NCBI GenBank assembly: GCA_948472945.1
Contig: CAOKVX010000016.1
Location: 1-61,055, forward strand
Direction: 5' to 3'
From: an uncultured Clostridia bacterium
GTDB taxonomy: Bacteria > Bacillota > Clostridia > Lachnospirales > Lachnospiraceae
DNA: 61,055 nt
Below the pieces are notes generated by a model. The model saw only the letters and a program-made list of their open reading frames with translations, searched no databases and had not been told where the DNA came from. The translations under genes and the position numbers were made by a program. Below are positions 34,416-40,165 of this stretch, piece after piece. Within the stretch, counting starts at the first letter, position 1. Each line of letters begins with the position of its first letter.

Positions 34416-34471
34416 AATTATACGGCATAAAAATTTAAACAAAATTATACAAATGTAAGGATGTGAATAAG

Positions 34472-34852
34472 TTGAAAATAAAAACCTTATTTGAAAATAT
34501 GAAAGACCGCGATAAAAAGATTATCCGCAAAAAGAAAGCTATTAAAATGTCGGCTTATAAAGTTACAAAAAAGCTGGCGGCTTCTATTTGTATTGCTTTA
34601 ATTTCATTTTTGGGGTTTGTGGGAGTGTGTGTATATTCCGCTATAATGAAAGGCGACGCCGGGTTTATTGTCGGAATCGTACCGTTGTTTTTAATGTTAT
34701 GCAACATAGTCGGTCTTATGATCGCATACAGTGAAATAAAAAATGATAATGTCAGGGTTAAATATGTTACAATTGGAACTCTCTCAAACGGGATTATTCT
34801 TGTAGTATATCTTTTAATGTACATTGCAGGCAGTCTGGACATTGTAGGCTGA
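34472..34852 (+). CDS. Small membrane protein, unknown function
   Basis: About 126 residues. TTG at 34472 is preferred as the start because TAAGG (34456-34460) is too close to the upstream GTG (34463). The N-terminal 30 residues are very basic (KDRDKKIIRKKKAIK), followed by three membrane segments (about 33-56, 62-82 and 96-116). It resembles small Lachnospiraceae DUF6142-like proteins, but I am unsure of that. It lies downstream of the VanZ gene and convergent to the AP2-domain gene. Confidence 0.55.
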   Translation: MKIKTLFENMKDRDKKIIRKKKAIKMSAYKVTKKLAASICIALISFLGFVGVCVYSAIMKGDAGFIVGIVPLFLMLCNIVGLMIAYSEIKNDNVRVKYVTIGTLSNGIILVVYLLMYIAGSLDIVG

Positions 34853-34868
34853 AATTATCGGCTGCCGC

Positions 34869-35666
34869 CTAATTTCTTTTGCATAATTCAGTAATTTTAT
34901 AAGATATATTAATATTTTGGTATATAAAACTGTAATCAGCTGATGACAATGATTCAATGAAATTTTTTTCAAAGTTTTTCTTAATTCCTTTTTCTGATAG
35001 TGTGTCGACGGCCTTGTTGTAGGCTACGGCGGCCTCTGTCTCCGTTTCATACCGTCCTATAATATAATTGCCTCTTATATGGATTTTCGCTATGTAATGT
35101 TCAAACTCCGTACCCCTGTTCTGAACCGAAACCCCGTTATAACGGTTTATAACGGCTATATTTGAATAGCGGTAATCGTGGTCGTCCCCGTTAATGAAGT
35201 AGTAGTCTTTCCCCTCTATGGCGTAGTTTTTAATACCGTATCTTGAAGCGATGTTTATCTGCATGCCGAAATCAGCCACAAATAAATGTCCTCCCCGCTT
35301 CATTATTTTATGTGTGGAATAAAAAAATAAATCCTCGGCGTCAAATGTGTACACGTCATTTTCGTCCAGATAATAGTAAAACATATTTTTTTTCAAATAT
35401 ATCGGAGTATTTATGTAAAGGCCGTTGTCGCGATAGTTAATTATTACAACCCATTTAATAAATGACAGGCTGGCGGAGTCTGTATAATCAGAAACTGATA
35501 ATGAGGATGAAACGAGTGACAGCGCTTCTTTGTACGCCGCGTTTGCATCGGCCTCGGATAGGTAGCTTCCAAGGCTTATGTGTCTTCCCCTGAATGTAAA
35601 TGAAGCCCGGTAATATACATCGCCGTTCTTTTTTTTTGCAGCGTATACACCTCGTGCATCGGACAT
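34869..35666 (-). CDS. Double AP2-domain protein with a degenerate HNH core
   Basis: A 265-residue protein. Residues about 5-55 (GVYAAKKKNGDVYYRASFTF onward) and 177-235 (NGVSVQNRGTEFEHYIAKIH onward) are both AP2/ERF-like DNA-binding domains: three strands with GxxxR/Yxx spacing, then a helix with EA-xAAYN/KEA. The middle (about 95-175) has the layout of HNH homing endonucleases, but the catalytic region reads YYFINGDDHDYRYSNI where active enzymes have DHINGD-x-DNRxSNL. The key histidine is a phenylalanine (F158), so cleavage is unlikely. It looks like a homing endonuclease turned into a DNA-binding protein. ATG 35666 follows AAAGG. No intron or insertion site is evident around it. Confidence 0.72.
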   Translation of the reverse strand: MSDARGVYAAKKKNGDVYYRASFTFRGRHISLGSYLSEADANAAYKEALSLVSSSLSVSDYTDSASLSFIKWVVIINYRDNGLYINTPIYLKKNMFYYYLDENDVYTFDAEDLFFYSTHKIMKRGGHLFVADFGMQINIASRYGIKNYAIEGKDYYFINGDDHDYRYSNIAVINRYNGVSVQNRGTEFEHYIAKIHIRGNYIIGRYETETEAAVAYNKAVDTLSEKGIKKNFEKNFIESLSSADYSFIYQNINISYKITELCKRN

Positions 35667-35777
35667 CAAATCTCAACCTTTCTTAAAAATTTATACAATT
35701 TTATCACAAAATTGTTACATAATTATTTCGTATATGCATATAATATTTAATATAAATGTAAATATATGGAGGTATAT

Positions 35778-36494
35778 ATGCGAATTAAAGGAAAAAAGAT
35801 AATATTGATTATATACAGTGTGTTGATAATATGTACGATAGCAAGGGCTAAAGCTGCAGTGATAGATAAGCCTGAAGCCGACGAGTGCAGTGTATATGTA
35901 AACACCGTAAAGAGTCTGGGACATAACAAAGGATATGACGTAGGAGAAACGATAACCGCAAATATTGATTTGATAGACACGGTAACGGCTGAAACTATTA
36001 TACAGCAGAACAGCGAGCGGTTAATAGAGAGCAGCGTAAAAGCACATAAACCTAAACCTGTTGTGGAAACTATAGGAGGACTTGCCATAAACAGGCGGGA
36101 TGAAATTAAACTCTCGGAAAAGGATAAAAAAATATTATACAGAATAGTTGAAGCAGAGGCTGGTGGAGAGAATCTTTCCGGAAAGATGTTAGTAGCTAAT
36201 GTAGTATTAAACAGGTATCTAAGCAAAAAGTTCCCAAACACCATAAAGGGCGTGGTTTTTGCGCACAGTGGAGGAACTTATCAATTCTCACCCATAAGTG
36301 ATGGAAGATATTATAGAGTAAAGGTTAGCGGTGAAACTAAAAAGGCGGTAAAGAAAGCGCTGTCAGGAATGGACAACTCAAGAGGCGCCGTATACTTTAT
36401 GTGCCGCAGGCTTGCAAAGAGCAGCAATACAACATGGTTTGACAATTGTCTCGACTACCTGTTTAAATATGGATGTCATGAGTTTTTCAAGTGA
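35778..36494 (+). CDS. SleB-like cell wall hydrolase, secreted
   Basis: A 238-residue secreted protein. The start at 35778 is set by GGAGG at 35768-35772. An N-terminal signal peptide (hydrophobic KIILIIYSVLIICTIARAKA) precedes a linker of about 80 residues. A C-terminal Hydrolase_2 domain (about 110-238), related to the spore cortex lytic enzyme SleB, follows. The active-site glutamate region is RIVEAEAGGENLSGK, followed by VANVVLNRYLSKKFPNTIKGV and QFSPISDG. Lytic transglycosylase action on peptidoglycan is expected from the family. A paralogue lies at 39359. Confidence 0.82.
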   Translation: MRIKGKKIILIIYSVLIICTIARAKAAVIDKPEADECSVYVNTVKSLGHNKGYDVGETITANIDLIDTVTAETIIQQNSERLIESSVKAHKPKPVVETIGGLAINRRDEIKLSEKDKKILYRIVEAEAGGENLSGKMLVANVVLNRYLSKKFPNTIKGVVFAHSGGTYQFSPISDGRYYRVKVSGETKKAVKKALSGMDNSRGAVYFMCRRLAKSSNTTWFDNCLDYLFKYGCHEFFK

Positions 36495-36665: not shown

Positions 36666-36701
36666 CATTTATATATGTCACGAAAAAGGAGAGATACTAA
36701 T

Positions 36702-38186
36702 ATGGGTATTATGTATAAAAGTACGAGAAGCAGCGGCACGGAAGTAACTGCGTCACAGGCTATTCTAAAAGGTCTTGCCGACGACGGAGGGTTATACGTA
36801 CCGGTTTCGTTTCCTAATCTCCCTGTAAGTGTTGACGAACTTGCGGGGCTTAGTTACAGGGAAACAGCTTATATTATAATGAAAGAATTCCTTTCGGATT
36901 TTACTGAGGAGGAATTGAAGAAATGTATAGACAGCGCCTACGATGATAAATTTGACACGAAAGAGATTGCACCGCTTCACAAGGCGGACGGCGCATATTT
37001 TCTTGAACTGTTCCACGGGGCCACAATCGCATTTAAAGATATGGCTCTTTCAATCCTGCCTCATCTTCTGACGACGGCGGCAAAAAAGAATAATGTTAAT
37101 AATAAAATAATAATACTCACTGCGACAAGCGGAGACACAGGAAAGGCGGCACTTGCCGGGTTTGCAGATGTTGAAGGAACCGGTATTATTGTATTCTACC
37201 CGAAGCACGGCGTAAGCCAAGTGCAGGAAAGGCAGATGATAACACAGAAAGGCAGCAATACATATGTTGTCGGAATTGAAGGCAATTTTGACGATGCACA
37301 GACAGGCGTTAAAGACATGTTTAACGACAGAGAGCTTGCCGCTTTGATGGATGAAAAGGGATATCAGTTCTCGTCAGCCAATTCCATCAATATTGGAAGG
37401 CTTGTTCCACAGATTGTATACTATGTATATTCTTATGGAAGGCTTGTCAATGACGGAGAGATAAAGGCCGGAGAGCCTGTAAATTTTGTCGTTCCAACCG
37501 GAAACTTCGGAAATATACTTGCGGCGTACTACGCTAAGAAAATGGGACTTCCTGTTGGAAAGCTGATTTGCGCGTCCAATGAAAATAAAGTATTGTTTGA
37601 TTTCTTTAAAAGCGGAACATATGACAGAAAGAGGGAGTTTATTCTGACAAGTTCACCGTCGATGGATATCTTAATTTCCAGCAACCTTGAAAGACTTATT
37701 TACCATATTGCGGGAAATGACTGGGCCAAGACAAAGGAGCTTATGGAGATGCTGGCAGTTGAAGGCTCATACAGTATAACCGACGATATGAAAAGAGAGC
37801 TTGACATATTTGAGGGCGGCTATGCAACGGAGAACGAAACGGCAGAAACTATTAGACGAATATATAAACAGGACGGATATGTAATTGACACACATACAGC
37901 TGTTGCGGCGGATGTATATGACAAGTACAAAAAAGGTGGGGATACGGCGACAACAGTTATCGCATCAACTGCAAGTCCATATAAGTTTACGAGGAGCGTC
38001 ATGACGGCGATAGATAAATCATACGACTCACCCGATGATTTTGAGCTTATCGACAAGCTCTGCGAGATTTCAAAAGTAAGTATACCGCAGGCTATTGAGG
38101 ATATAAGAAGCGCAGAAGTCCTGCACGACAGGGTATGTGACAAAACAGAAATGAAAGAAACGGTAATGGATATACTTTGTATTTAA
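36702..38186 (+). CDS. thrC: Threonine synthase
   Basis: PLP enzyme converting O-phosphohomoserine to threonine. ATG 36702 follows AAGGAGAG at good distance and gives 494 residues; an upstream ATG at 36675 lacks a ribosome site. The long form (yeast/E. coli-like) is recognised by MYKSTRSS near the start, LADDGGLYVP, the PLP-lysine region HGATIAFKDMALSILP and the TATSGDTGKAA loop. GNFGNILAAYYAK and STASPYKFTRSV bind the cofactor phosphate. It stands apart from other threonine genes. One copy of a dispersed repeat lies downstream. Confidence 0.94.
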   Translation: MGIMYKSTRSSGTEVTASQAILKGLADDGGLYVPVSFPNLPVSVDELAGLSYRETAYIIMKEFLSDFTEEELKKCIDSAYDDKFDTKEIAPLHKADGAYFLELFHGATIAFKDMALSILPHLLTTAAKKNNVNNKIIILTATSGDTGKAALAGFADVEGTGIIVFYPKHGVSQVQERQMITQKGSNTYVVGIEGNFDDAQTGVKDMFNDRELAALMDEKGYQFSSANSINIGRLVPQIVYYVYSYGRLVNDGEIKAGEPVNFVVPTGNFGNILAAYYAKKMGLPVGKLICASNENKVLFDFFKSGTYDRKREFILTSSPSMDILISSNLERLIYHIAGNDWAKTKELMEMLAVEGSYSITDDMKRELDIFEGGYATENETAETIRRIYKQDGYVIDTHTAVAADVYDKYKKGGDTATTVIASTASPYKFTRSVMTAIDKSYDSPDDFELIDKLCEISKVSIPQAIEDIRSAEVLHDRVCDKTEMKETVMDILCI

Positions 38187-39338: not shown

Positions 39339-39358
39339 GTAACAAATTGGAGGTAATT

Positions 39359-40165
39359 ATGAAGTCAATCAAAAAGGCATTATGTTCAGTACTGGTATGT
39401 TTCGGAACATTCGTGTTTTGTTCAAGTACAGTTAATGCTGCTGAAAGCACAGAGGTATTTAATACCGAAGCTGCCGACAACAATTTTGTTGATAACAATG
39501 TAACCGAGAATATTGTTGCATCACAGGACACACAGGAACAGGAAACAACGGAGACACAGGAGACTACAGGTACACAGGAAACCGGAACACAGGAAACAGC
39601 CGAAATGCAGGACGCAGCAGAGACACAGCAGACAGTTCAGACGCCGCTGATGCGTCAGGTTCAGGTAACACCTTTCATATCCGGATCCGTGAATGTATTT
39701 ACAGAACAGACGGGTGACGCGGTTGAACAGGAGATTGCCGCAGGAGGTAAAAAGTCGAAATCCGATAAAAAGAAATATAATAAAGCGGATTTGAGACTTA
39801 TGTCGGCAATAATATACTGCGAGGCCAATATTGAGCCTTACGCCGGAAAACTTGCTGTAGGAATCGTAATAATGAACAGGGTGAATTCGAAGTCATTTCC
39901 AAATACAATTAAAAAAGTAATATATCAGAAATCACAGTTTTCACCTGTAAAAAACGGCTCCCTTAAAAGAGCGCTTGCTAGATATGACGCAGGAAAGTTT
40001 AAGTCGAAGAATGAAAAACAGTGTATCAAGGCGGCTAAGGCAGCGCTTGACGGAGTAACATCGGTGACATACGGCGGCAGTGAAAAAAATATGAAGAAAT
40101 TTCATTACTTTAGCGGCTCATTAAGCGGTTCAAAATTCAGGATAAAGGGCCATAAGTTTAAATAA
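39359..40165 (+). CDS. SleB-like cell wall hydrolase with a Thr/Gln/Glu-rich linker
   Basis: A 268-residue secreted protein, paralogue of that at 35778. The start is set by TTGGAGG (39347-39353). It has a clear signal peptide (KKALCSVLVCFGTFVFCSSTVNAAES). A low-complexity linker built from TQE and TQET units (about residues 55-105) follows. A Hydrolase_2 domain (about 140-268) comes last, with RLMSAIIYCEANIEPYAGK, the conserved VIMNRVNSKSFPNTIKKV and SQFSPVKNGSLKRAL. The linker probably spans or lies along the wall. A terminator follows directly. Confidence 0.82.
   Translation: MKSIKKALCSVLVCFGTFVFCSSTVNAAESTEVFNTEAADNNFVDNNVTENIVASQDTQEQETTETQETTGTQETGTQETAEMQDAAETQQTVQTPLMRQVQVTPFISGSVNVFTEQTGDAVEQEIAAGGKKSKSDKKKYNKADLRLMSAIIYCEANIEPYAGKLAVGIVIMNRVNSKSFPNTIKKVIYQKSQFSPVKNGSLKRALARYDAGKFKSKNEKQCIKAAKAALDGVTSVTYGGSEKNMKKFHYFSGSLSGSKFRIKGHKFK

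Follow-up and report, generated by a model that had tools for sequence, protein, structure and literature searches.

The double-AP2 gene and its product

This locus raises the question of whether an HNH-like gene with AP2 domains, lying in a bacterial chromosome, still encodes a mobile nuclease or has been taken over by its host as a DNA-binding protein and, if so, for what purpose. The gene was studied within a stretch of 61,055 nucleotides from an uncultured Clostridia bacterium of the family Lachnospiraceae (contig CAOKVX010000016.1; "the window" hereafter). A sequence-only reading had described its product as a double-AP2 protein with an inactivated HNH core, and the present analysis confirmed and extended that observation. 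The open reading frame was verified, with an ATG start at 35666, and its parts and neighbors are collected in Table 1.

Table 1. Features of the double-AP2 gene and of its surroundings in the window
Feature	Coordinates	Strand	Basis or remark
Double-AP2 protein gene (265 aa, P0001)	34869..35666	(-)	ORF and relatives
N-terminal AP2 domain, residues 6-53	35508..35651	(-)	
Degenerate HNH-like core, residues about 106-174	35145..35351	(-)	Bounds by eye; motif match
Putative ruined HNH signature, residues 154-174	35145..35207	(-)	F157 at the place of the catalytic His, N169 kept; 128-row alignment, I-HmuI register
Second AP2 domain, residues 176-231	34974..35141	(-)	Opens 9 residues past N169
C-terminal tail, residues 232-265, partly helical	34872..34973	(-)	AF2 models
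WalR-box-like element between divergent genes	35703..35719	(-)	One mismatch
Cell wall hydrolase (PF07486), divergent neighbor	35766..36494	(+)	In 55/108 neighborhoods
Threonine synthase, syntenic marker	36675..38186	(+)	In 88/108 neighborhoods
Small protein with no Pfam family, bounding the locus on the left within the genus	34463..34852	(+)	

When the window protein was searched alone, no Pfam family came near its cut-off, no match to the Pfam AP2 model was obtained, and no NCBIfam family was found. Against PHROG it matched a family named HNH endonuclease (4e-8), the match running through the AP2 part, and against the PDB it matched a plant AP2 protein (E 0.15). At the level of the whole family, the AP2 sequence profile and fold were found at both ends: AP2 folds were recovered in structure searches of the models, and AP2 homology was also seen by profile, so that the proposal of AP2 domains at both ends holds on predicted structures. 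The Arm-type binding domains of integrases (Arm-DNA-bind_3) gave weaker matches than AP2, and the product has no integrase domain. Judging from the fold, the protein is predicted to bind DNA; Pfam, NCBIfam and a profile scan of the relatives revealed no recognizable ligand or effector domain. A version with three AP2 domains (L193-L199) occurs in one family of the order; in the two of these loci that were checked, the divergent neighbor is a transketolase. With Pfam's own model, few genomes of the phylum show an AP2 domain (2 of 149 at E 1e-6), and a survey of prokaryotic transcription factors gives 77 AP2 members (PMC7017128).

The HNH-like core and its lost active site

The catalytic positions were located through the canonical enzymes, whose invariant D62, H63, N75, and N84 correspond by alignment to D74, H75, N87, and N96 of I-HmuI (1u3e); D74, H75, and N96 are described as catalytic (PMC12724721). 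The alignment of relatives comprised 128 rows, of which 127 are distinct because L035 and L136 represent the same contig. At the place of the catalytic His (H75) it has Phe in 122 rows, His in four, Tyr in one, and Gln in one, and the place of the metal Asp (D74) is variable (R 47, I 21, Y 14, L 13, and others). The place of N87, which is N169 in the window protein, is Asn in all 128 rows. Between N169 and the Gly of the second AP2 domain there are 9 residues in 128/128 rows, whereas this spacing is 25 residues in nine of 11 canonical proteins and 26 and 17 in the other two, so that none of the 128 has room for the helix bearing N96, the second metal ligand. The catalytic D-H pair and the Asn metal ligand of HNH homing endonucleases were thus not found. 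These results bore out the inactivated core with His replaced by Phe, and the loss of the helix adds to the two substitutions listed by the sequence-only reading. Since the lesions are common to the aligned relatives, the loss is dated to before the sampled families diverged.

That the protein still cuts DNA through a rebuilt active site could be argued from the invariance of D154 and N169 (128/128), from the Asp kept at the place of D164 in 117/128 rows, and from the His found at the catalytic place in L037, L117, L119, and L134. However, these four His carriers have the same 9-residue spacing and therefore share the helix deletion; the general base has been lost together with one metal ligand and the helix that carried the other, and no sign of homing was seen, the locus being mostly fixed and no genuine phage copy being recognized. 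We regard an active nuclease as extremely improbable.

The closest known systems are the phage HNH-AP2 homing endonucleases, in which an I-HmuI-like core is followed by an AP2 domain at the C-terminus (for example in phage records HQ316579, KF669661, MF327003) and which share with the window protein the AP2 homology, seen by profile, and an HNH-type motif preceding AP2. All 11 enzymes compared have D, H, N, and N at the active-site places, whereas this active site is lost in the AP2 gene product, which also differs from them in the deleted helix, the added N-terminal AP2 domain, and a chromosomal, syntenic gene.

The descent of the middle from an HNH domain was examined separately. The HNH motif matched in the expected register and only one of 300 permutations did as well, whereas the stretch before the motif was no better than chance (131 of 200 permutations as good). 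The HNH_3 profile gave no row on the window protein at E up to 10, reached 4 of 68 relatives at E 0.05 (best 0.0055), and scored 11.9 and 12.0 bits, against a cut-off of 24.8, in two relatives scanned singly, so that neither these two nor the window protein reached the cut-off. AF2 confidence was low in the middle (block means 37-57 for residues 51-140 and 62-78 for the motif region), and the AlphaFold modeling used 8 rows of relatives. Neither HNH proteins nor I-HmuI were among the matches listed by Foldseek and VIA for the two models, which excludes nothing given how poorly the middle is modeled. These weak profile scores, the stretch before the motif, and the structure searches would fit a plain AP2-X-AP2 protein in which the motif NGD..D.R..N(I/L) arose by chance or convergence. 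The register of the motif and its rarity among permutations speak against this, as do the HNH-then-AP2 order, which is kept, and the invariant N169, and we think such a protein rather unlikely. Modest evidence, consisting of one short motif, suggests that the middle is of HNH ancestry.

Distribution of the relatives

Relatives were found in 163 of the 397 genomes sampled from the window's own family (126 of 320 among those of good quality) and in 76 of 295 genomes of an order sample, spread over six families, although Pfam's AP2 model rarely finds the domain in the phylum. Of the 163 own-family carriers, three have two matches and the others one; a second copy was not found in the window's own 2.68 Mb genome at E up to 10. 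Identity to the window protein was 45-59% among the matches listed, the window's own excluded. In wider samples (4 of 299 genomes for the phylum and 13 of 391 for the class) every carrier belonged to the window's own family, and seven named loci comprised six from Lachnospiraceae and one from Vallitaleaceae. As far as sampled, the double-AP2 family appears limited to one order, which from these names is presumably the Lachnospirales. Searches of 40 genomes with phrog_99 and HNH_3 were aimed solely at the canonical enzymes.

Presence is patchy, and the gene is accordingly dispensable: it was absent from 234 of 397 own-family genomes, some of them incomplete, and from six of ten genomes of the genus. 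The count of four carriers in the genus leaves out one further match at E 0.06, which is short, lies in a frame of 1516 residues, and was dropped as chance.

Locus and neighboring genes

Gene neighborhoods were compared at 108 loci (107 distinct), some of which end at contig edges. The commonest order is thrC, the hydrolase gene, and then the AP2 gene in the opposite orientation. Among 20 loci from other families, ten have threonine synthase and the hydrolase at -2 and -1, and three share another pair that is gyrase-like by Pfam (one checked); in family f2, five of seven loci have a neighbor of 659-672 residues, a transketolase in the two checked. The upstream neighbor is divergent in 95 of 106 cases and both flanking genes run against the AP2 gene in 88 of 106, so that it stands alone as a transcription unit. 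Five genomes of the genus lack the gene but have the flanking genes in place, 99-254 bases apart, and no remnant reaching E 1 was detected at the empty spot; a sixth, G398, has different genes upstream of thrC. The presence of syntenic orthologues in related genomes thus disposes of one objection foreseen at the outset, that a domesticated gene should have orthologues at the same place. A second PF07486 cell wall hydrolase gene lies nearby, at window positions 39347-40165.

Inheritance, constraint and mobility

The AP2 gene is constrained, somewhat less than its neighbors. Against its nearest relative (86% identity), dN/dS was 0.092 by NG86 and 0.117 by YN00, and the same genome pair gave NG86 values of 0.063 for thrC, 0.062 for hisA, and 0.028 for the hydrolase. 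Twelve close pairs yielded seven finite values of 0.021-0.096, one pair being counted twice and only two distinct pairs having dS below 1, and five saturated ones.

Inheritance is largely vertical, and the gene is mostly single-copy. A gene tree was built from 67 rows, for which 46 of the 107 own-family sequences were drawn at random and all 21 others were taken; only 14 of its 64 inner branches are well supported. On this tree the family labels require seven changes, against a possible minimum of six and a mean of 20.4 after shuffling. Label f22 was split, and pairwise identity correlated loosely with that of thrC (Pearson 0.45 over 87 loci), so that some transfer is possible.

The absence of the gene from many genomes could also be read as a sign that a selfish gene is decaying and being lost. 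One stop lies within the matched stretch in G212, G184, G278, and G391 among the matches listed, although some of these may be the gene's own end, and in G631 the frame is split into two pieces. Against decay stand the dN/dS of the finite pairs, the long open frames in nearly all matches listed, the ancestral age of the lesions, and a synteny that extends across families; this explanation seems very unlikely.

Mobile elements were searched as well. In viral contigs the single protein found no relative and the profile found one partial locus; phage records gave two long matches and a short one, and plasmids weak matches only. The two long phage matches and the viral locus lie on scaffolds that carry chromosomal genes of the same neighborhoods (threonine synthase on L215 and, by eye, a leuC-like gene on L214 and a leuD-like gene on L161), so that they seem to be bacterial DNA filed among viral sequences. 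Ownership of the gene by phages was consequently rejected for these two full-length scaffolds and the viral locus, and L214, L215, and L161 are recorded here as contamination of viral collections. No genuine phage, plasmid or viral relative was recognized among the matches examined. Instead of the mobility of HNH homing endonucleases (phages, introns, varied sites), a conserved locus was observed.

Upstream region and search for target sites

Target sites were sought upstream of the gene by k-mer counting and by EM, the latter on the intergenic parts of 97 loci. The searches yielded ribosome-binding sites, an extended -10-like motif, and a direct-repeat box; EM scores were 145.8 at width 14 (48.7-58.0 in three shuffles) and 167.2 at width 18 (69.0-72.0). 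The box fits TGTWAH-N5-TGTWAH, which we take to be the WalR consensus. It was exact in 11 of the 49 loci that have the hydrolase upstream and in two of 57 others, 19 of the 125 upstream regions (from other families) being placed in neither class, and in 0.8 per 125 in shuffles; it was also exact in four of five genomes without the AP2 gene, measured upstream of the hydrolase. The box therefore goes with the hydrolase gene, to which the WalR-box-like element in the window probably also belongs rather than to the AP2 gene; this suggests that the PF07486 hydrolase is part of a WalRK-type regulon.

The AP2 gene's own upstream element is the extended -10-like motif. No operator of its own was found by k-mer counting or by EM on the intergenic parts of the 97 loci, and hence there is no sign of autoregulation. 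A palindrome inside the gene (CCGTTATAACGG, 35134-35145) was rejected as a candidate site: it is not conserved in the relatives and, at up to one mismatch, it occurs 12 times genome-wide, as does its reversed control (12 copies), so it is attributed to chance. A link to sporulation was not seen in 80 own-family genomes picked by hand, of which 77 have a completeness of 90% or more and a contamination of 5% or less: SpoIVA was present in 27 of 40 genomes with the gene and in 30 of 40 without it.

Proposed origin and function

A domesticated protein that no longer cuts DNA but keeps its DNA-binding domains is well supported by the sequence comparisons. Domestication, loss of cutting, and retention of the binding domains had all been suggested from the window, and the suggestion gained from the same-locus orthologues, mostly in one copy, the low dN/dS, and the three lesions common to the aligned relatives. 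In the mechanism that we propose, the nuclease would have lost its activity before the order diversified. Its general-base His would have been replaced by Phe, the adjacent metal Asp would have been released from constraint, and deletion of the helix carrying the second metal ligand would have left the second AP2 domain abutting the core. The remainder would be a clamp of AP2, dead HNH, and AP2, with a third AP2 domain presumably added in one family; it would read DNA via the AP2 sheets and most likely act as a transcription regulator. With some confidence, then, we consider the gene to encode a host-owned DNA-binding protein derived from an HNH-AP2 homing endonuclease, probably one that regulates transcription.

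Divergent single-gene settings are typical of regulators. A regulatory role is our best guess from the divergent, stand-alone, and conserved setting of the gene and from the precedent of WhiA. WhiA is described as a degenerate homing endonuclease turned regulator, a host DNA-binding protein in Gram-positive bacteria (PMC3781837). As proposed for the AP2 gene product, WhiA (DUF199, a degenerate LAGLIDADG protein) is a dead endonuclease kept as a host DNA-binding protein, but it comes from another nuclease family, has an HTH instead of AP2, is much more widely spread, and has a known regulon. The likeness is one of kind and not of descent: a dead nuclease that is host-owned, syntenic, and constrained.

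The main rival to transcription regulation is an architectural or repair role, that is, a domesticated DNA-binding protein acting in chromosome architecture, replication, segregation or repair. In its favor are the two or three DNA-binding-type modules with no recognizable ligand or effector domain and the lack of an autoregulatory footprint upstream. The neighbors vary by family (thrC and hydrolase, the gyrase-like pair, transketolase), so that there is no fixed neighboring target, and B. subtilis WhiA is reported to affect division and segregation without regulating the genes involved in them (PMC10714963). The conserved divergent single-gene setting argues in the other direction, and the patchy presence speaks against a core chromosome function; we hold this role to be unlikely.

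The plant AP2/ERF transcription factors (WRI1, TEM1, AtERF1) have the AP2 fold in common with the family, and WRI1 also has two AP2 domains, but these factors are eukaryotic and the relation is one of domain kinship, not of membership. To our knowledge they have no HNH remnant between AP2 domains. A similar step from endonuclease to regulator has been proposed for their origin. Tentatively, and with more doubt than belief, we suggest that the family could represent a new class of transcription factor in bacteria, namely an AP2 regulator present across families of one order, derived from a disabled HNH-AP2 homing endonuclease, and missed by curated profiles. A literature search found no account of such an AP2/dead-HNH family, most subscription papers being outside its reach, and this silence is thus weak evidence of novelty. 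If the new-class reading is true, the family would be a bacterial replay of the step proposed for plants. If it does regulate genes, it would provide a bacterial case of a homing endonuclease becoming a DNA-binding regulator, with intact endonucleases still existing for comparison, and it would point to an unstudied regulator in Lachnospiraceae.

An AP2 protein from a Staphylococcus aureus plasmid (149 aa, L213:1447-1893) also gave a weak match. Scans of the viral contigs retrieved no locus with this protein and one with L228. By eye the S. aureus protein also seems to have no proper HNH signature, and it is perhaps another degenerate case.
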